From: Rhodospirillales bacterium
Lineage (GTDB): Bacteria > Pseudomonadota > Alphaproteobacteria > CACIAM-22H2
DNA length: 64,000 nt
NCBI GenBank assembly: GCA_016794025.1
Contig: JAEUKX010000078.1
Location: 124,001-188,000, forward strand
Reading direction: 5' to 3'
Shown: in pieces, positions 26,396-41,689 of the stretch
Layout: each line of letters starts with the position of its first letter
How positions within the stretch are numbered: the stretch's first letter is position 1
Program-made: the position numbers and the translations under genes
Notes under the pieces: generated by a model
Told to the model about the DNA's origin: nothing
What the model saw: the letters and a program-made list of their open reading frames with translations, nothing else
Databases searched by the model: none

Positions 26396-27262
26396 ATGTT
26401 CGCGATCATCGGGTTGTTGCTCGTGCTTTTCTGCGTGTTTGGCGGATACATCATCGCCGGCGGCAAGATCGGCATCATCCTGAAGGCGCTGCCGTTCGAG
26501 TTCCTTATCATCGGCGGATCGGCCGCCGGTTCGTTCCTCGTCGGCAATTCGGGCTCGGTCGTCAGTCACGCGCTTAAGGATTTCGGCCGCGTCTTCAGCG
26601 GTCCGAAATACAAGCGCGAAGACTATATCGACCTGCTCTGCCTGATCTTCACGATTCTGAAGCTCGCTCGCTCCAAGGGAACGCTCGCGGTCGAACCGCA
26701 CATCGAGAAGCCGGATGAGTCGAACATCTTCATGGCCTATCCGAAGGTGCTCGCGAACAAGTATGCGATCGCGCTGATCTGCGATCACATGCGCATGCTT
26801 TCGATGGGTGTCGAGGACGCGCACCAGCTCGAGGAGATCTTCAATAAGGAACTCGAGAAGCATCATCATGAGGTGATGCGCGGCGGCAACGCGCTGGCAA
26901 CTACCGCCGATGCCTGTCCGGCGCTCGGCATCGTCGCGGCCGTCATGGGCGTGATCAAAACCATGTCCTCGATCGACCAGCCGCCCATCATCCTCGGTGG
27001 CCTGATCGGCTCGGCGCTGGTCGGAACATTCCTCGGCGTGCTCCTTTCCTACGGAATTATTGGTCCGATGGCCGGCCGCCTGAAGCAGGTCTACGAGGAC
27101 GAATTCAAGTTCTACGAGATCATCCGGGATACGTTCGTCGCCCATCTTCAGGGCAACGCACCTCAGATTTCGACCGAGATCGGCCGCAAGAATGTGCCGT
27201 CCGACCTGCAGCCGACTTTCTACGAGCTGGAAGAGGCAATCGCTTCCAAGCCGGCCGCGTGA
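26396..27262 (+). CDS. motA: Flagellar motor stator protein MotA
   Basis: 288 residues, the MotA/ExbB family proton-channel subunit of the flagellar stator. N-terminal hydrophobic pair (residues 3-50, VFGGYIIAGGKIGIILKALP), a large cytoplasmic loop (50-165) and two later helices (ALGIVAAVMGVIKTM and GTFLGVLLSYGIIGP) with the conserved prolines. A perfect AAGGAGG ribosome site sits 8 bases before ATG. Unusually, motB is not next; the stop overlaps the start of a GT41 glycosyltransferase as GTGA. Confidence 0.96.
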   Translation: MFAIIGLLLVLFCVFGGYIIAGGKIGIILKALPFEFLIIGGSAAGSFLVGNSGSVVSHALKDFGRVFSGPKYKREDYIDLLCLIFTILKLARSKGTLAVEPHIEKPDESNIFMAYPKVLANKYAIALICDHMRMLSMGVEDAHQLEEIFNKELEKHHHEVMRGGNALATTADACPALGIVAAVMGVIKTMSSIDQPPIILGGLIGSALVGTFLGVLLSYGIIGPMAGRLKQVYEDEFKFYEIIRDTFVAHLQGNAPQISTEIGRKNVPSDLQPTFYELEEAIASKPAA

Positions 27263-29127
27263 CGGATCAGGTCGCCGCGGCGATTGCGGAGATTGCCCGA
27301 TACGCGAACGCGGGCACCTGGCGGGAGGCGCTGGCGCATGCGCGCGCGCTCGATCAGGGGAGCGCCGCCTCGAACCATCCCGACGCAAAGCTTGTCTGCG
27401 CACAGGTCTATTTGGCGACCGGCTTCGTGGGCGAGGCAAAACGTGCCGCCAACGAGGCCGTTGAGCTTGCCGGCGATCTGCCAGGGCCTTATCTGGTCCG
27501 GGCCCGGGCGGCGGCGACAAATGGCGAAGGCGATGCAGCGCTGGCCGATCTCGACGCCTGTATCTCGCGTGCGCCCGCCTCTCCTGACGCGCGGCTTCTG
27601 AAAATCGAGATACTGCATCGCCTCGGGCGGTTCGAGCAGGTCCGGCAAGCGCTGGATGAAGCGCGGCGGGCCGGTTTCGACACCCCTGAATTCGCGCGCC
27701 ACCGTTCGGTCAACGCCATGGCATTCGGCGAGATCACGCTTGCGGAAGCGGAAGCACGTCGCGCGATCGAAGGAGCCGGCGATATTGCGGCTGCGCATCA
27801 ATGGCTTGGCACTGTTCTATTGCAGGATGGTCGGGTAACGGAGGCGCGGTCCGAGTTCGCCGCCGCGATCAGGCTATCCCCGGATGACGAGAAGGCCTGG
27901 ACCGACGATCTCTTCGCCGCCAACTATGATCCGGCTTTATCGGTCGGAGCGCTGAAGACGCTTTACGTCCAATGGGCGGACAAGTTCGCCAAGCCGCCTG
28001 ACGCGCCGAGCATGCCAGCTCCATCCATCGGCGGCCGGCGTCTCAGGGTAGGATATCTGTCGCAGGACTTGCGGACCCACTCGATCCGCCAATTCCTGCG
28101 GCCACTCCTGACGAATCACGACGGCGGCAGAGTCGAGACGTTTGCCTATAGCGCGACAACCGAGCCGGATCCCGAGACGGATCGTTTCAAGCCGCTCTTT
28201 TCCAGTTGGCGGGATGCCTCGAATTTGGACGATGCGGCTCTGGCGGAGCAAATTCGTGCCGACGGCATTGATGTGCTGGTCGATCTTGCCGGCCACACCG
28301 CCGGCTCGCGCCTGAAGGTGTTCTCACGCAAGCCGGCGCCAGTGCAGGCCACCTGGCTTGGCTATGGCGGGACAACCGGCGTTCCGGAAATCGACTGGTA
28401 CATCGGCGACTCGCGGATGCTTCCGCCGGGCGTTGAAGACGCGATCACAGAAGGTCCATGGCGGCTGCCGCGGCCATGCTTTGCCTATGAACCGCCGACA
28501 TCGATGCCGCTGCCCGGACCATTGCCGGCCCTGCGGCGGGGATACGTGACTTTCGCGAGCTTCTCGCGGCTTGTCCGCATCAACGATGACGTCGTCGCGG
28601 CATGGTCGAGGATCCTGGACCGGGTCCCCAATTCCAGGCTGTTCCTGAACGCACTCGCTTTCGTCGATGACGGTGCGCGAAAGAGGATGGAAGCACGGTT
28701 TGCCGCAAACGGAATCTCGGCAGACCGTCTCGAACTGCGCTATACGCGGCCGCAACCGGCAACGTGGCTTGCTTATCGCGACGTCGACATCGCACTCGAC
28801 CCGTTCCCTCACAACGGCGGCGTGACGAGCTTCGAGGCGCTGTGGATGGGGGCTCCGCTGGTGTCGAAGCGGGACCGGCCGCCGCTGGGACGATATGGCG
28901 ACTGCCTGCTGGACGCGCTCGAAATGGACGATTGGTGCGTCGACACGGTCGAGAGCTATATCGAGCGTGCCGTCAGGGCCGCGGCCGACGTCAGCCAACT
29001 CGCCGAGATCAGGGCGGGATTGCGTGACAGGATGCGCTCGAGCGCGCTATGCGACGGGCCGGGACTTGCGCGCGCGATGGAAGTGGCCTTCGCCGAAATG
29101 CGGGAACGGGCCTCGGTCAGCGCTTAG
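27259..29127 (+). CDS. TPR-containing O-linked N-acetylglucosaminyltransferase-like protein (GT41, SPINDLY type)
   Basis: 622 residues. Residues 1-225 form tetratricopeptide-like helical repeats; about 255-610 is the two-lobed OGT/SPY catalytic domain, with LRVGYLSQDLRTHSIRQFL, VDLAGHTAGSRLKVFSRKPA, QATWLGYGGTTG, a mid-domain FASFSRLVRIND and the donor-site LDPFPHNGGVTSFEALWMG. Such enzymes transfer a sugar (GlcNAc, fucose or other) to Ser/Thr of cytoplasmic proteins. GTG start overlapping motA suggests a flagellar or motor-linked target, which is inference. It is tail to tail (11 bp overlap) with the 92-aa gene. Confidence 0.9.
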   Translation: MTDQVAAAIAEIARYANAGTWREALAHARALDQGSAASNHPDAKLVCAQVYLATGFVGEAKRAANEAVELAGDLPGPYLVRARAAATNGEGDAALADLDACISRAPASPDARLLKIEILHRLGRFEQVRQALDEARRAGFDTPEFARHRSVNAMAFGEITLAEAEARRAIEGAGDIAAAHQWLGTVLLQDGRVTEARSEFAAAIRLSPDDEKAWTDDLFAANYDPALSVGALKTLYVQWADKFAKPPDAPSMPAPSIGGRRLRVGYLSQDLRTHSIRQFLRPLLTNHDGGRVETFAYSATTEPDPETDRFKPLFSSWRDASNLDDAALAEQIRADGIDVLVDLAGHTAGSRLKVFSRKPAPVQATWLGYGGTTGVPEIDWYIGDSRMLPPGVEDAITEGPWRLPRPCFAYEPPTSMPLPGPLPALRRGYVTFASFSRLVRINDDVVAAWSRILDRVPNSRLFLNALAFVDDGARKRMEARFAANGISADRLELRYTRPQPATWLAYRDVDIALDPFPHNGGVTSFEALWMGAPLVSKRDRPPLGRYGDCLLDALEMDDWCVDTVESYIERAVRAAADVSQLAEIRAGLRDRMRSSALCDGPGLARAMEVAFAEMRERASVSA

Positions 29128-29395
29128 AGCCGGGCGAAATCCGCTTGGCCGCCACTGTCTGACCGGGCAACCATTTCTTGACTGTCTGCGGCTTTGCGGC
29201 GCGCTTGCCGACGGTCGCCTCCTCCAGCTTGTCGGCAAGGCTCCTGTAGTTGTCCATGGTCAGCGCCAGAAGGTCCTTTTCCGCGATTCCCATGGCGATT
29301 GCGGAATCCCCCTTCATCTGCGCCTGCCGGAGCAGATAGACCATGAGCTTCGCCTCGTCGGCGGTGATCTTGAGCGTATAGACCGGTCCGGCCAT
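29117..29395 (-). CDS. Hypothetical protein (92 aa)
   Basis: A soluble, helical protein: AGPVYTLKITADEAKLMVYL then RQAQMKGDSAIAMGIAEKD and a basic C-terminal tail (KRAAKPQTVKKWLPGQ). No family is recognised. GAGGA lies just before the ATG. It faces the GT41 gene tail to tail, and the related-looking short gene at 29507-29710 lies upstream on the same strand. Confidence 0.6.
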   Translation of the reverse strand: MAGPVYTLKITADEAKLMVYLLRQAQMKGDSAIAMGIAEKDLLALTMDNYRSLADKLEEATVGKRAAKPQTVKKWLPGQTVAAKRISPGSKR

Positions 29396-35844: not shown

Positions 35845-38493
35845 ATGGGCGGGAGTTTCGATCTTGGCCGGTTGGCCGCGGCCACGGCGCTGGCGAATGC
35901 CCTGGCCGCCGGCGACACGTCATCCCTGTCCGCGCTTTTTGAGCTTCGTCGGTCGCTTGCAAGGGCGCTGCTCGACGGTTCCGCTTCGGCGGAGGCGGTG
36001 GCGGCCAGCCCCGGTGCGATCGACCTTGCAAGGGCCGGGCTGACTCGCTTTCCGGCGGACGTGGCGGACGCCGAACTGAGGGCTGAGTGCCTGCGGCGGT
36101 TTGCCGAAACCGCGGGTCTGCTGGCGACGGCCATCATGGTCGAACCTGTCAATCTTCCGGCCGTTCCCGATCTCGGCCCGCTGTCGCGCGACCTCCGCGC
36201 GCTTGTGGGAACCCTGCTGCTGACCGCCCCGGCGCTTTTCAACGAGCCGGGCGAGGGCGACCGCTACGCCGCGCGCATCGAGGCGATCGTGGAAGCTTTC
36301 CATCGCGTCGTCGTCGGAACGCCGGAGGATCCCGGCAAACTCGCGCTGGGCCTGCTGTTCGCGCAACGCGCGAACCTGCTCATGGCGTACTTCTCGACGC
36401 GCAATCTCCGTCGGCTCTTCCGCCTGCGCGGCGAGATCGTGGAGACGATGCTTGTCGGCGCGCGGCGCCAGTCCGCCTTTGCGTTCGGCACCCGCAGACC
36501 GGGGCCGCTTCGCGTCGGTCTCGTGACCCATGCGCTCCAGCCATTCACGGAGACCTATCTCGCCGTCTCGCAGTTCGAGGCGAAGGCGCCGGAAATCGAG
36601 CTGACCGTCTACACGATCGAGCCTGCGCCTGGCCCGATCGAGGAACTTGCGCGCGCGCGCGCGAACCGCGTCGTCCGGTTGCCGGCGGACCTCGGCGAAC
36701 AGCTGCGCGCGATCCGCGCCGACGATCTCGACGCGATGGCGATTCACACGAACGTGTCGGCGATCGTCAATCCCGTGGCGATCCTGTCGGCCTGCCGGCT
36801 CGCGCGCGTCCAGATCGCCTCGAGCGCCACGCCTTCGACGACGGGATTCGCGGTGGTCGACGCGTTCCTTTCCGGCACCGGGAACGAGCCGGGAAGCGAT
36901 CCGCAGTCGGACTATTCGGAACACCTGCACCGCATGCCGGGCTATGTGAACTACTACGCGTTCCAGCATGACCGTTCGCAGGCGAGCCTGATGCCGACGC
37001 GCGCGGCCCTGGGCCTCGCCGAGGATGCCGTCGTATATTTCTCGGGGGCAAACTTCTTCAAGCTCGGGCCGGAGGTGACGGCGCTGTGGGCGCGCCTTCT
37101 GGCCGCAGTCCCGCAGGCCCAGCTCCTCATCATGCCGTTCGCGCCGAGTTGGTCGTCCTCCTACCTGTCGCGCCCGTTTTTCGAGCGCATGGCGGCACAG
37201 TTCGCGGCGGCGGGCGTCGGCGCGGACCGCTGGCGTGTCGCCCAGCCGGTCCCCACGCGGGGCGACCTGCACCGCATCGCCGCACTCGCCGACATCTACC
37301 TCGACGCGCACCCGTTCTCCGGCGCCTGTTCGCTCATCGATCCGCTGACGGTCGGTCTGCCGATCGTGACTCTGGCGGGGACGCGGTTCCGCGGGCATGT
37401 CGGCGCCGCAATGCTGGAAGGTGCGGGCCTCGGCGATTTCGTGGCGCACGGCGAGGCCGACTATCTGGCGAAGGCGGCCGCGCTTGCCGGTGATGCTGCA
37501 GCACGTCATGCAGCTGCCGCAAGGGTCCGCAAGGCCATGCAGCCCGTGCTGCCGTATTTCGACGTCGCGACCGCGGGCCGGAAATTTGCGGATGCCTGTG
37601 CGGCACTGGTGGAAGCCCGCGCGGCGCAGTTTTCGGCGCTGCGCGCCCGCCCCGCCGGGGCGCTGTCCGCCACCATCGGGAAACTGGCGGGCCTGCTTGC
37701 CGGCACACCTTTGTTCCGGGCCTTGAGCGACATCGAGATCCTGCGCCTGCTCGTCGTGCCGTTCCTTCGCGACATGTGCCCGTCGGGCCACGGCATCGAC
37801 GTCGGCGCATGCGTGGGCGAGATGTCGGCGGACCTGCTCGAAGCGGGATGGACGCTCGACCTGTTCGAGCCCGACGCGGCCTGTCTGCCGTCGCTGCAGC
37901 AGCTGGCGGCCCGGTTCGGCGGCCGTGCACGCCATCACGCCGTTCTGGTCGGCGAGACGTCGGGGGAGGCCGCGTTCTTCCGTTCCGACATGGGCCTGTC
38001 CGGCCGGTCGCCGTCGAGCTTCGGGGCGACGAGCGAAATGGTGCGCGTTCCCAGCGTGCGGCTCGATGAATTCGTGTCGCGACAGGGGATCGACCGCGTC
38101 GACTGGCTCAAGGTGGACTGCGAAGGTTACGATTTCGATGCGCTGGAGAGCCACGACTTCGCCGCCCGTCCGCCGCGCCTCGTCCTTGTCGAGTACACGA
38201 CGGCGCACGCCCGGCAATCCGCGGAACGCGTCGCCGCCGTGATCGAGAAGATGCGCGCCCACGGGTATGGCGCCCTCGTGTTCGCCTATGAAGATGCCGG
38301 AAATTTCCGCCGCCGGGTGTGGGACTATTGGTGCATCGGACTGACGGCGGGCGAACTGCCGGTGTGCGCGGCCGGCCATTCGCAGGGCAACATCCTTTTC
38401 CATCGGGCCGACGACACGGAATTTCTCGCGCATGTCGCGGCGACCCTTGCGGACATGCTGCCCGGCAGTTCGCGCGCAGCGGTGCTCGGATGA
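35845..38493 (+). CDS. GT41-like glycosyltransferase fused to FkbM-type methyltransferase
   Basis: 882 residues. Residues 1-205 are helical without clear TPR motifs. About 215-580 follow the OGT catalytic lobe: RVGLVTHALQPFTETYLAVS, SSATPSTTGFAVVDAF, a mid-domain FSGANFFKLGPEV, and donor-lobe LDAHPFSGACSLIDPLTVGL then PIVTLAGTRFRGHVG. Residues 640-880 are an FkbM methyltransferase: GIDVGACVGEMSADLLEAGW, LFEPDAACLP and VDWLKVDCEGYDFDALES. Single-chain sugar transfer plus O-methylation is implied. ATGA overlap with the next gene couples it to a nucleotide-sugar SDR. Confidence 0.85.
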   Translation: MGGSFDLGRLAAATALANALAAGDTSSLSALFELRRSLARALLDGSASAEAVAASPGAIDLARAGLTRFPADVADAELRAECLRRFAETAGLLATAIMVEPVNLPAVPDLGPLSRDLRALVGTLLLTAPALFNEPGEGDRYAARIEAIVEAFHRVVVGTPEDPGKLALGLLFAQRANLLMAYFSTRNLRRLFRLRGEIVETMLVGARRQSAFAFGTRRPGPLRVGLVTHALQPFTETYLAVSQFEAKAPEIELTVYTIEPAPGPIEELARARANRVVRLPADLGEQLRAIRADDLDAMAIHTNVSAIVNPVAILSACRLARVQIASSATPSTTGFAVVDAFLSGTGNEPGSDPQSDYSEHLHRMPGYVNYYAFQHDRSQASLMPTRAALGLAEDAVVYFSGANFFKLGPEVTALWARLLAAVPQAQLLIMPFAPSWSSSYLSRPFFERMAAQFAAAGVGADRWRVAQPVPTRGDLHRIAALADIYLDAHPFSGACSLIDPLTVGLPIVTLAGTRFRGHVGAAMLEGAGLGDFVAHGEADYLAKAAALAGDAAARHAAAARVRKAMQPVLPYFDVATAGRKFADACAALVEARAAQFSALRARPAGALSATIGKLAGLLAGTPLFRALSDIEILRLLVVPFLRDMCPSGHGIDVGACVGEMSADLLEAGWTLDLFEPDAACLPSLQQLAARFGGRARHHAVLVGETSGEAAFFRSDMGLSGRSPSSFGATSEMVRVPSVRLDEFVSRQGIDRVDWLKVDCEGYDFDALESHDFAARPPRLVLVEYTTAHARQSAERVAAVIEKMRAHGYGALVFAYEDAGNFRRRVWDYWCIGLTAGELPVCAAGHSQGNILFHRADDTEFLAHVAATLADMLPGSSRAAVLG

Positions 38494-39440
38494 ACCGTTC
38501 GTGCGCATTGATTACGGGTGCCGCCGGCCAGGACGGCCGACTGCTGTCGCGCCGGCTTGTCGCGGCGGGCCATCGCGTCGTCGGGCTCGTCCGGCAGCCG
38601 GCGCCGATGCCCGAGGCGGGCGTCGAACTGCTAGCCTGCGATGTCGGGGATTGCGCGGCGCTTACGGCCGCGCTCGAGCGCTTCCGGCCCGACCGCATCT
38701 TCCATCTCGCCGCCCGGCATCATTCCAGCGATGGCGACGCAGGCGACGCCGCGCTGCTTTCGCGCGAGATGGTGCGGGTGAACTTCCACGCGGCGGCAAC
38801 GATCTTCGACTGGATCGCCACGCGCGCGCGATCCGCGCGCGTCATCTTCGCAGGTTCGAGCCAGATGTATCCGGCGGCGGGCGAAGGCGATTGCCGCATC
38901 GACGAGGCGACGGCCGCCGTGCCGCGCACGTTTTATGGCACGACGAAGGCGTGGGTGCGCGACCTTGCGCGACATGGGCGCGAGCGGCTCGGGCTGCATG
39001 CCGGCTTCGCGATCCTGTTCAACCATGAAAGTGAACTTCGCGGGCCGGGTTTCGTGACGCGCAAGATCGTCGAAGCGGCGGCGAGCGGTGCCGCGCTCGA
39101 ACTGGCGGATATCGGCGCGCGGGCCGACTGGTCGGCTGCGGCCGACATCGTCGAGGCGCTTGCGCGCATGGCCGACGCGCCGACGCCGGGCGAATACGTT
39201 CTCGGCTCGGGCGCGGCGCATTCGGTGCGCGACTGGGTGGATATCGCCTATGCCCGCACGGGCGCGGATCGCGCGAAGGTCGTTGCGCGCGAGGACCGCC
39301 GGGCGGGCGCGCTGGTGGCCGACCGCACGCGCGCGGAACGCGAGCTGGGCTGGCGGCCGCGCACGGATTTCCGCACGCTCGTCGAGGGGATGGCGGACGC
39401 CGCGCTCAGAGAATTTCGATCTCGGGGAACGGCACGATGA
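38490..39440 (+). CDS. NAD(P)-dependent nucleotide-sugar epimerase/dehydratase (GDP-mannose 4,6-dehydratase-like SDR)
   Basis: 316 residues, extended SDR. The N-terminal ITGAAGQDGRLLSRRL carries the GQDG form of the nucleotide-binding loop characteristic of GDP-mannose 4,6-dehydratases; HLAARHHSS, the Ser in AGSSQMY and the Tyr-x3-Lys pair in TFYGTTKAW complete the active site. The C-terminus REDRRAGALVADRTRAEREL (GWRP) binds the sugar nucleotide and signals a GMD/GMER-type substrate. It probably supplies or modifies the sugar for the fused transferase. It overlaps the convergent C-methyltransferase by 35 bp. Confidence 0.87.
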   Translation: MNRSCALITGAAGQDGRLLSRRLVAAGHRVVGLVRQPAPMPEAGVELLACDVGDCAALTAALERFRPDRIFHLAARHHSSDGDAGDAALLSREMVRVNFHAAATIFDWIATRARSARVIFAGSSQMYPAAGEGDCRIDEATAAVPRTFYGTTKAWVRDLARHGRERLGLHAGFAILFNHESELRGPGFVTRKIVEAAASGAALELADIGARADWSAAADIVEALARMADAPTPGEYVLGSGAAHSVRDWVDIAYARTGADRAKVVAREDRRAGALVADRTRAERELGWRPRTDFRTLVEGMADAALREFRSRGTAR

Positions 39441-40644
39441 ACTTTCCGCCGCGCTGGCGATAGGCTTCCTCGCGGCGCAGGATCCCGTCCTTGAAATGCC
39501 AGGGCAGCAGCAGGATGAAGTCCGGGTTCATCGCCTTGGCTTCCGTTTCCGAGATGATCGGGATGTGCGTGCCGGGCGTGACGCAGCCGAACTTGGTCTC
39601 GTTCACCTCGGCGATGGCCGCGATCTGGCGCGGGCCGAGGCCGCAGAACTGGAGAATCACGTTGCCCTTGGTCGAGGCGCCGTAGCCTACGATCTTCTTG
39701 CCTGCGTCGGCGAGCCGCGAGATCAGGCGCACGAGGTCCTGGCGGTGGCGGTAGACGCGATCCTCGAACTGCCGGTAGGGCAGCGGCGTGCCGAGGCTCA
39801 TGCGGTCTTCCTGCTCGAGCATCCAGTCGACGATCAGGCTGTTCGGCGTCCACTTCGAATCCTTGCGCGCCGCCGTGACCGCGAAACTGCCGCCGTTGAC
39901 GGCATTCTGCTCGACATCCACGACATGCATGCCGACGGCGTCGAGGATCTTCGCGACGACGCCAAGTGAATAGTATTCGAGGTGCTCGTGGCAGATCGTG
40001 TCGTACGAGCACATGCGCAGCATCGAGGGCATGTAGCTCTGTTCGAAATGCCAGAGGCCGTCCTTGTCGAGAACGCGTTCGACCTCGCGCGCGAAGCCGA
40101 CCGGGCTTTCCACGTCGTAGAACATCGCGATCGACGTGACGATCTTGGCGGGTGCCGCACCGGTCGCCTTGATGCGCGCGGCCGAGAAGAAGTCGGGGAC
40201 GAGTTCGATCCCAGCCTCGTAGTACCGGGCGAACTTGGCGCCCGTCGGATCGATGCCGATCCGGCGCAGCCCCGCGGTCTCGTAGCCTTTCAGGCCGGTG
40301 CCGTCGTTCGAGCCGATGTCGATGACTGTGTCGCCTGCGGCAAGGCCCGCGAACTTCTCGAGATTGACGAACTTGCGCTTGAGGTGGGCGACCATCGAGG
40401 CGTTGAGACCCGACCGGTAGCCGTAGTTGTCGCCGTACATCTCGCCGGCGTCGTAGCTGTGGCCCAGCTGGAGGAGGCCGCTGTCCGGGCACCAGACCAG
40501 TTCGAGCGGGCCCTCGGTGACCTTCTCGGCGGGCGAGGCGGGAAAGACGCCGGTCAGCGCCTGGCGGCCGAGACTCAGGACCGGAACCAGGTTTGGCGAG
40601 CCGGAAAGGCGGCAGGCTTCGAGCTTCCTGAACTTGGCGGCCAT
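39406..40644 (-). CDS. Sugar C-methyltransferase-like protein (NovU/TylC3 family layout)
   Basis: 412 residues in the three-part layout of NDP-hexose C-methyltransferases: N-terminal metal-binding-like region (CRLSGSPNLVPVLSLGRQAL and LVWCPDSGLLQLGHSYD), central SAM fold (VIDIGSNDGTGLKGYE, IGIDPTG, HEHLEYYSLG with the conserved His-Glu-His) and a C-terminal Rossmann-like domain (IVGYGASTKGNVILQF). Only one Cys of each expected CxxC pair remains, as in a subfamily I have seen with the same CxLxGS start. It probably methylates a nucleotide-linked or polymer sugar. Confidence 0.87.
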   Translation of the reverse strand: MAAKFRKLEACRLSGSPNLVPVLSLGRQALTGVFPASPAEKVTEGPLELVWCPDSGLLQLGHSYDAGEMYGDNYGYRSGLNASMVAHLKRKFVNLEKFAGLAAGDTVIDIGSNDGTGLKGYETAGLRRIGIDPTGAKFARYYEAGIELVPDFFSAARIKATGAAPAKIVTSIAMFYDVESPVGFAREVERVLDKDGLWHFEQSYMPSMLRMCSYDTICHEHLEYYSLGVVAKILDAVGMHVVDVEQNAVNGGSFAVTAARKDSKWTPNSLIVDWMLEQEDRMSLGTPLPYRQFEDRVYRHRQDLVRLISRLADAGKKIVGYGASTKGNVILQFCGLGPRQIAAIAEVNETKFGCVTPGTHIPIISETEAKAMNPDFILLLPWHFKDGILRREEAYRQRGGKFIVPFPEIEIL

Positions 40645-40674: not shown

Positions 40675-41526
40675 TCAGCTTACTCCGGGTGTCGCGGAGT
40701 CCGCGAGAAGTGCTGCCGCGTAGCGCGAAAGCAGCCCGCCATCCGTGCGCCTGTCGAATTCCTGCAGCAGGAGGGCGACCAGATCGTGCGAGGCATAGAT
40801 GTCGTGCATGATCCGCGCGTAGGCGAGGATCTGCGCGTCCGACAGCCGGTCCAGCCGGTCGATGGCGCGCACGTACACGGCCGCTTCGGCAAAAAGGAGC
40901 TGGCTGCCGGGGCCGAAGGGCCCGCTGCCGAAGACCAGCGGCTTGAGCTGGCGGCTGAACGGCGCCACGAGGCGGTGGAACATCATGCCTTCGCCGCGCA
41001 GGAACACGTCGATGTCGCCGAACAGGGCCTGGCCCTCGTACATCTCGACGAACTCGACCTCGGTGTGCACGACGAGGCACGATTCCAGCCGCTTCCGCGC
41101 GCCGCGCAGCACATCGAGTTCGGCGCCCTGCACGTCGATCTTCAGGAAGTCGCACGCCTCGATCATGTCGAGATCGTCGAGGCGCCGCGTCTCGACCTCG
41201 CTCGTGCCCACGACGGGCAGCGGCAGGTTGTGGAACAGCGACAGCAGCCGCTCGTTCGGGCGGTAGAGCGAGGACGTCAGCGGATTGGCGCAGAGATGGA
41301 ACGTGCGGCGCGTGCCGTCGCCGATGAAGTAGGGCAGGAACTTGTGGTGCGCGGGGGCGGCGGCATTGCGCGCGGCGCATGCCTCGGCGTTCGGCTCGAA
41401 CCCGACGACGCGCACGGCCGGATCGGCGGCAAGGGCCGCGTAAGAATCGGTGCCCTCGCCCATGGAGGCGGCACCGACATCCACGACGGCGAGCGGGGTT
41501 TCCCGGATTTTTGAGAATCGGAACAT
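40675..41526 (-). CDS. FkbM-family methyltransferase
   Basis: 283 residues: SAM site VVDVGAASMGEGTDSY and VVGFEPNAEAC, then a middle part with SSLYRPNERLLSLF and the FkbM motif CDFLKIDVQGAELDVLRGA (about 125-143). The family methylates sugar hydroxyls or similar groups. The open frame extends to 41745 through the tRNA gene, so the ATG at 41526 is the credible start. It lies upstream of, and is probably co-transcribed with, the C-methyltransferase (30 bp gap). Confidence 0.88.
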   Translation of the reverse strand: MFRFSKIRETPLAVVDVGAASMGEGTDSYAALAADPAVRVVGFEPNAEACAARNAAAPAHHKFLPYFIGDGTRRTFHLCANPLTSSLYRPNERLLSLFHNLPLPVVGTSEVETRRLDDLDMIEACDFLKIDVQGAELDVLRGARKRLESCLVVHTEVEFVEMYEGQALFGDIDVFLRGEGMMFHRLVAPFSRQLKPLVFGSGPFGPGSQLLFAEAAVYVRAIDRLDRLSDAQILAYARIMHDIYASHDLVALLLQEFDRRTDGGLLSRYAAALLADSATPGVS

Positions 41527-41615
41527 GCGTCGCCGGCAAGCATACCGTTGAAGCTGCGCGCGTGCATGGCGCCAGTTCTTGTCGTCGCAAGGTCCGATTC
41601 GGTGGTTTTGGCGGT

Positions 41616-41689
41616 TGGCTGGGGGACTAGGATTCGAACCTAGACTAGCTGAGTCAGAGTCAGCGGTCCTACCGTTAGACGATCCCCCA
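41616..41689 (-). tRNA. tRNA-Gln (anticodon CTG)
   Basis: Minus-strand 74-mer. Acceptor stem TGGGGGA / TCCCCCA, D arm TCGTCTAACGGTAGGAC, anticodon stem-loop GCTGA-CTCTGAC-TCAGC with anticodon CTG, T arm with GGTTCGAATCC, discriminator G and an encoded CCA. All helices pair. It sits between an FkbM gene and ppx/gppA with no integrase nearby. Confidence 0.97.

Follow-up and report, generated by a model that had tools for sequence, protein, structure and literature searches.

Sugar transfer and methylation have been found together in single polypeptide chains before. The strongest precedent is A064R of the chlorovirus PBCV-1: its second domain adds a rhamnose, and its third domain then methylates this sugar at O-2, as was shown biochemically (PMC9614988). 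Closest within family GT41 are the glycosyltransferases (GTs) of enterobacterial flagellin islands, nearly all of which also hold methyltransferase domains (194 strains; PMC4875605). According to the same source these domains belong to cd02440, FkbM proteins are counted separately, and the genes lie in flagellin loci. The same economy is seen in a large Klebsiella O7 protein, in which a methyltransferase-kinase stands at the N-terminus and GT modules at the C-terminus (PMC11231755).

The best studied relatives of the GT described here are other GT41 enzymes. SPINDLY, the plant protein O-fucosyltransferase (7y4i, 8dtf), is inactivated by H495A and by H495F while D491A remains active, and its authors proposed that the α-phosphate of the donor acts as the base (PMC9715652), a role likewise proposed for NGT (PMC10507012). 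The guanine contact made by SPINDLY K689 is abolished by Ala (PMC10027727), and the SPINDLY authors tied the bulk of Y744 to donor choice. In the bacterial enzyme FlmG, flagellin binding depends on the TPR domain (PMC7591256).

The protein described here, P0001, is encoded in a 64,000-nucleotide stretch of a Rhodospirillales genome (the window) and joins a GT41-like domain to an FkbM methyltransferase domain. The reaction proposed for it resembles that of A064R, where one chain adds sugars and a C-terminal domain O-methylates the last one. Unlike those of P0001, the GT domains of A064R lie outside GT41 (D1 has a GT-A fold and D2 is called a new family); A064R acts on an N-glycan, and the review describing it makes no mention of FkbM. 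P0001 also differs from FlmG, since it has no TPRs and is not near flagellin genes. A preliminary description of the locus had called the protein an unusual one-protein capping machine; the fusion is real, but the principle has precedent in A064R and in the enterobacterial enzymes. What is new is the joining of GT41 and FkbM on a GT41 clade that lacks the active-site His, an arrangement that is real, conserved and somewhat unusual. Neither a GT41-FkbM fusion nor such a clade was found named in the passages and listings of open-licence papers that were searched. Of the two, the clade is perhaps of greater interest than the fusion.

The fusion gene and its conservation

The gene and its parts are located as follows.

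35845..38493 (+), stop included: GT41-like/FkbM fusion gene, P0001, 882 amino acids, a single uninterrupted ATG frame
35845..36474 (+): N-terminal all-helical domain, residues 1-210, predicted by AlphaFold; no TPR detected
36487..37644 (+): GT41-like GT-B domain, residues 215-600; PF13844 at 378-566
36544..36546 (+): codon for Phe234, at the position of SPINDLY H495 (profile alignment, column counts)
37060..37062 (+): codon for Lys406, equivalent to SPINDLY K665 (hOGT K842) (profile alignment, column counts)
37780..38490 (+): FkbM methyltransferase domain, residues 646-882; PF05050 at 652-808

The coordinates, strand and length given in the preliminary description were correct, as was its account of a single chain ending in about 240 residues of FkbM methyltransferase. 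The domain search of both halves that it had proposed gave matches above the curated Pfam cut-offs, with 55.1 bits for PF13844 (cut-off 25) and 67.6 bits for PF05050 (cut-off 22.7). The NCBIfam FkbM model TIGR01444 scored 64 bits against a cut-off of 37.7. The best PF13844 stretch spans only positions 351-529 of the 543 in the model; similarity covers both GT-B lobes, extending over residues 215-565 for XcOGT and bacterial TPR-containing GT41s, including those of the FlmG type, and over profile positions 62-451 for SPINDLY. Searched against the PDB with phmmer, the GT part matched SPINDLY (1.5e-21) and XcOGT (3.5e-18), and the FkbM part had no match. The top 19-residue Kyte-Doolittle mean was 1.54, and a membrane span was not evident.

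The minus-strand open reading frame at 35920-38508, opposite the fusion gene, is a shadow of the high GC content. The domain matches, the full-length orthologs in four assemblies and the purifying selection indicate that the plus frame is the real gene, and the four assemblies together with the dN/dS values rule out a chance frame or an artefact. These values, calculated between the orthologs of ALPHA1 and G006, were 0.090 for the N-terminus, 0.097 for the GT part and 0.035 for the FkbM part, so that both halves are under purifying selection. A scan of the region for promoters and terminators found sites no more numerous than in shuffled sequences.

Full-length orthologs were found in 4 of the 23 genomes of the order, counting its own, all of one genus, with 63-73% identity to P0001; a search of 61 relatives returned the same four. 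They include the MAGs RI_332 (WGNX01000007.1) and ALPHA1 (JAIUNH010000055.1) and genome G006, and the fusion is unbroken in all four orthologs. A Reichenbachiella locus matches only 32 residues of P0001, and there was no match in E. coli genomes. Phage and plasmid origins were considered and rejected: no phage record matched and none of 93 pattern matches was confirmed as a viral contig, and of the 72,556 plasmid records the 78 that matched by tblastn included none covering 80% of the protein.

The survey of fusions suggested in the preliminary description gave these orthologs but no further example. PF05050 matches were listed in the 23 genomes of the order, and a profile search for GT41 and FkbM in the same frame found no other such fusion in the 19 long-frame regions fetched, a subset of the long frames listed, from which fusions in shorter frames or in other taxa would escape. 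In one of the loci inspected, L022, Pfam gives only FkbM and PglD_N, with no GT4. Fusions of other kinds were seen: three congeners (L119, L121, L123) carry an FkbM domain fused behind a CDP-alcohol phosphatidyltransferase domain, and a 901-amino-acid frame (L018, G010:C181) holds a GT41 domain and a GT4-type domain.

The motifs DVGA, FEPD and LKxDCEG, which we take to be the SAM-site motifs of the FkbM domain, are invariant in the alignment of the four orthologs. Their invariance makes it likely that the FkbM half is active as a methyltransferase. FkbM enzymes can be sugar O-methyltransferases.

The N-terminal part is a domain of its own. The preliminary description had assigned the first 600 residues to an OGT-type transferase without obvious TPRs. 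The lack of TPRs was borne out, as residues 1-215 of P0001 and of two orthologs had no Pfam match, TPRs included, even at E<=10. The extent was not: similarity begins near residue 215 with XcOGT, near 290 with SPINDLY and near 125-129 within the protein's own clade, and residues 1 to about 210 form a separate helical domain. AlphaFold predicted ten helices for residues 1-215 (pLDDT 82.3, pTM 0.80). Foldseek gave no match to this model at E<=0.001, and VIA-align returned designed helical repeats and ARM/HEAT-like chains with a best Z of 9.5, a value in the range where that program is uninformative for helical models, so that missing HMW1C or TPR rows prove nothing. The full-length model, built from three sequences, had a pLDDT of 40.7 and was left out of the fold searches.

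The glycosyltransferase half and its clade

The sequence comparisons place the GT half in a divergent, TPR-less GT41 clade rather than among standard OGTs. A profile of five clade sequences (A3) matched SPINDLY best among solved structures (1.9e-41), followed by OGTs (~1e-33) and XcOGT (1.5e-32). The HMW1C-like NGTs, GT41 enzymes with an all-α N-terminal domain, may resemble P0001 in having a helical non-TPR N-terminus before GT-B, but their match was much weaker (~2e-11) and covered just ~85 C-terminal positions; NF049992, the NCBIfam model for HMW1C-like NGTs, gave P0001 16.1 bits against a cut-off of 1000. Tree building from 84 rows set 16 clade rows (14 labelled, one more from family f88 and one duplicate) apart from the other 68, on a branch with an SH-aLRT of 100. 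Canonical GT41 relatives are abundant in the genomes carrying the fusion.

Across 385 genomes of the class, A3 found further members in at least three f88 and at least three f135 genomes, counts that are lower bounds since the class and phylum searches scored four (GT part) or seven (FkbM part) candidates per genome. The f88 members are frames of 642-669 amino acids, and each of three f135 genomes (L107, L108, L109) has short and long clade paralogs in tandem. In f88 the clade gene lies beside an SDR gene and is divergently transcribed, and the long f135 copy continues at its C-terminus for a further ~230-250 amino acids that have no Pfam match.

The best plasmid matches to the GT half came from Azospirillum B510 (37%) and Acaryochloris 'Moss Beach' (34%) over ~430 amino acids, with E-values of 2e-51 and 1e-53, the next record being at 1e-14. 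Both proteins (WP_012978700 and WP_235111739) belong to the same clade as P0001 and, unlike it, have no FkbM domain: the Azospirillum protein is fused to GT4-type modules. The Acaryochloris frame (L028:4474-10149) encodes 1892 amino acids and reads TIGR03032/DUF4915, clade GT41-like domain, TPRs and then another GT41, this one canonical. On the Azospirillum plasmid (L113, pAB510f 205000-245000) the clade gene clusters with a type I secretion adaptor, an ABC transporter, a very long gene for a calcium-binding protein, a GDP-L-fucose synthase and TPR proteins, and this is possibly a cluster for the glycosylation of a secreted protein.

The active site was compared by column counts over 15 clade and 66 other GT41 sequences, three duplicate rows having been dropped; the 66 were picked for matching P0001 or A3, so that they do not sample GT41 at random. 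The numbering agreed with that of the SPINDLY papers, with D491, H495, S496, V497 and K665 placed as expected. At the H495 position (H558 of hOGT) P0001 has Phe234; the clade has Phe in four sequences (all of them fusions), Arg in ten and His in one, from Acaryochloris, compared with His in 64 of the 66 others. The V497 position is Glu in 12 clade members, P0001 among them, and Asn in three, while the others have Val (42), Ile (10), Asn (2) or a mixture of further residues. An inserted Trp (W436 in P0001) is present in 15/15 clade sequences and is a gap in 66/66 others. The changed loop of the clade has Phe or Arg, next a Glu or Asn, and the inserted Trp further on.

The donor-phosphate Lys (K665, K406 in P0001) is found in all 15 clade sequences and in 65 of the 66 others, and the ribose contact E752 corresponds to D499, with an acidic residue (D/E) in 13 of the 15. 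The refuting case named in the preliminary description, a loss of the residues needed for sugar-nucleotide binding, therefore applies only in part, the donor Lys and the ribose acid being kept. Y744 is matched by the also bulky F491, where HMW1C-like NGTs have Phe as well, and a donor smaller than GlcNAc is therefore plausible. The stacking His H728 corresponds to L475. The guanine-contact K689 is Met in P0001 and never Lys in the clade (Lys in 30/66 others). A GDP-fucose-type donor was considered in view of SPINDLY and of the GMD-like SDR encoded next to the fusion gene, and it would have to bind where the guanine-contact Lys is missing. P0001 therefore shares with SPINDLY the donor Lys, the ribose acid and the bulky residue, and differs from it in having no TPRs, in the Phe, Glu and Met at positions 495, 497 and 689, and in the extra FkbM domain.

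These differences do not agree with the label OGT-type used in the preliminary description: Phe and Glu stand at the H495 and V497 positions, and the Phe, a substitution that is catalytically dead in SPINDLY, argues against a plain SPINDLY/OGT mechanism. The GT41-like domain could, then, have lost transfer altogether and act as a scaffold that binds glycans or nucleotide sugars and feeds FkbM, as the Phe in 4/4 orthologs would suggest, SPINDLY being inactivated by either Ala or Phe at this site. We consider this quite unlikely, as the donor Lys and the ribose acid are kept, dN/dS of the GT part is low, and the Arg of the clade with the conserved Glu or Asn beside it and the Trp insert in 15/15 give the site a remodelled rather than decayed look. 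A new loop so strongly conserved is hard to square with decay of the GT site. Furthermore, the α-phosphate of the donor has been proposed as the base for SPINDLY and NGT alike, and an enzyme with a different loop may therefore do without the His. A bolder reading, which we regard as somewhat doubtful, is that the clade would be an active, mechanistically distinct GT41 branch with a rebuilt His loop, and the FkbM fusion in this genus a self-capping O-methylating GT that would, in a single binding event, label its acceptors with a methylated deoxyhexose.

Neighbouring genes and the proposed reaction

The genes downstream of the fusion gene are the following.

38490..39440 (+): GMD-like SDR; start overlapping the fusion stop (ATGA); presumed catalytic Glu replaced by Gln
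39406..40644 (-): sugar 3-C-methyltransferase-like protein, adjacent to the SDR gene and convergent with it
40675..41577 (-): second methyltransferase of the FkbM family; approximate start (that of the ORF caller is upstream of the tRNA)
41616-41689: tRNA-Gln (CTG), with ppx on one side and the second FkbM gene on the other; read through from the ORF-caller FkbM start

The SDR gene lies directly downstream of the fusion gene in 4/4 loci. In three of them (the window, L025 and L003) its start and the fusion stop share an ATGA; in RI_332 (L024) the two are a few bases apart. The coupling to a GMD-like SDR announced in the preliminary description was thus found, and GDP-mannose 4,6-dehydratase is the closest enzyme by sequence (1rpn, 1.5e-35), but the score against the GMD equivalog model TIGR01472 was 131 bits, with a cut-off of 415, and the Glu is lost. 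The STSEM of 1rpn aligns with GSSQM, and all four SDRs read AGSSQMY; the Glu of Thr-x-Glu (STSE) is presumably the catalytic dehydratase residue of GMD. Tyr-x-x-x-Lys is retained. The change of Glu to Gln in 4/4 and the score far below the GMD cut-off suggest that the SDR is probably not a 4,6-dehydratase; it may be an epimerase or reductase acting on a nucleotide sugar.

The other congeners inspected do not have the pair at the chromosomal place it occupies in the window. It is absent from the Ppx-RlmE-GuaB block in L061 (G009), L062 (G004), L063 (G006), L064 (G002) and L065 (G005), and in G006 it is on another contig than that block. In G006, ALPHA1 and RI_332 it is near altronate-dehydratase-like and FAD-oxidoreductase-like genes, named by eye from ORF starts. 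The protein of 39406..40644 is closest among solved structures to D-mycarose 3-C-methyltransferase (4rv9, 7.1e-61), and its gene accompanies the pair elsewhere only in RI_332 (G007).

Flagellin glycosylation was considered: the genus is rich in flagellin and GT41 genes, yet no flagellin match was found on the contigs of P0001 and its orthologs in the four genomes (two of these contigs are under 18 kb). Other GT41 genes of the genus have flagellar neighbours. At 26396-29127 of the window a MotA-like gene, named by eye, overlaps a TPR-GT41 gene (27259-29127, GTG start) by 4 nt; the order is repeated in L061 (G009) and L063 (G006), which ties this GT41 to a flagellar stator gene. A 92-amino-acid frame at 29117-29395 (-), 77-82% identical in L061-L064, lies beside the TPR-GT41 gene or an FtsW-like gene. 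The genus abounds in GT41 genes: 25 matched in G000, where the flagellin gene at C48:20766 (L066) has several of them as flanking neighbours.

We propose, at a probability of roughly 40%, that P0001 is a soluble single-chain enzyme that would carry out two steps on a glycan, transfer of a sugar and then its O-methylation. The coupled SDR would help to make or remodel the nucleotide sugar, the N-terminal helical domain would probably present the acceptor in place of TPRs, and the GT41-like GT-B domain would transfer one hexose or deoxyhexose. The FkbM domain would then O-methylate the added sugar or its neighbour and so cap it, both steps taking place in the cytosol. This proposal is supported by the two domains above their cut-offs, the unbroken fusion with purifying selection on both halves, the profile match to SPINDLY and OGTs, the kept Lys406 and D499, the bulky F491, the invariant FkbM motifs, the overlap with the SDR gene and the A064R precedent. 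Phe234 in place of the active-site His speaks against it, as do the Met and Leu at the K689 and H728 positions, which leave the choice of nucleotide undecided, and the lack of a conserved acceptor gene beside P0001.

The SDR, which by homology acts on nucleotide sugars, and the adjacent NDP-sugar-type C-methyltransferase in the window and in G007 would also fit an FkbM domain that methylates the nucleotide sugar or a precursor before transfer, in a chain that would be a unit of biosynthesis and transfer rather than of capping. This order is improbable in our view, and in A064R transfer precedes methylation. The acceptor, in turn, could be a glycan or lipid-linked saccharide of a surface polysaccharide instead of a protein with the Ser/Thr sites that the preliminary description had in view, extended by the GT41-like domain and methylated by FkbM. 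We regard this as unlikely, albeit less so than methylation before transfer. The 3-C-methyltransferase-like and second FkbM neighbours, the absence of TPRs, the lack of a neighbouring protein acceptor, the Azospirillum clade member that shares its chain with GT4 modules and the glycan acceptor of A064R are consistent with it. On the other hand, no Wzx, Wzy or ABC exporter and no other polysaccharide genes were recognised beside the fusion from the ORF starts in L060, L067 and L025. To our knowledge, the GT41 enzymes characterised so far all act on proteins.

To return to the proposed two-step enzyme, should its two halves prove active, a sugar would be added and methylated by a single soluble protein without TPRs. 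The clade to which its GT half belongs is a natural test of the debated question whether GT41 chemistry needs the enzyme His or uses the α-phosphate of the donor as the base, and a native Phe where SPINDLY dies, beside a new conserved Glu or Asn, offers a direct comparison.
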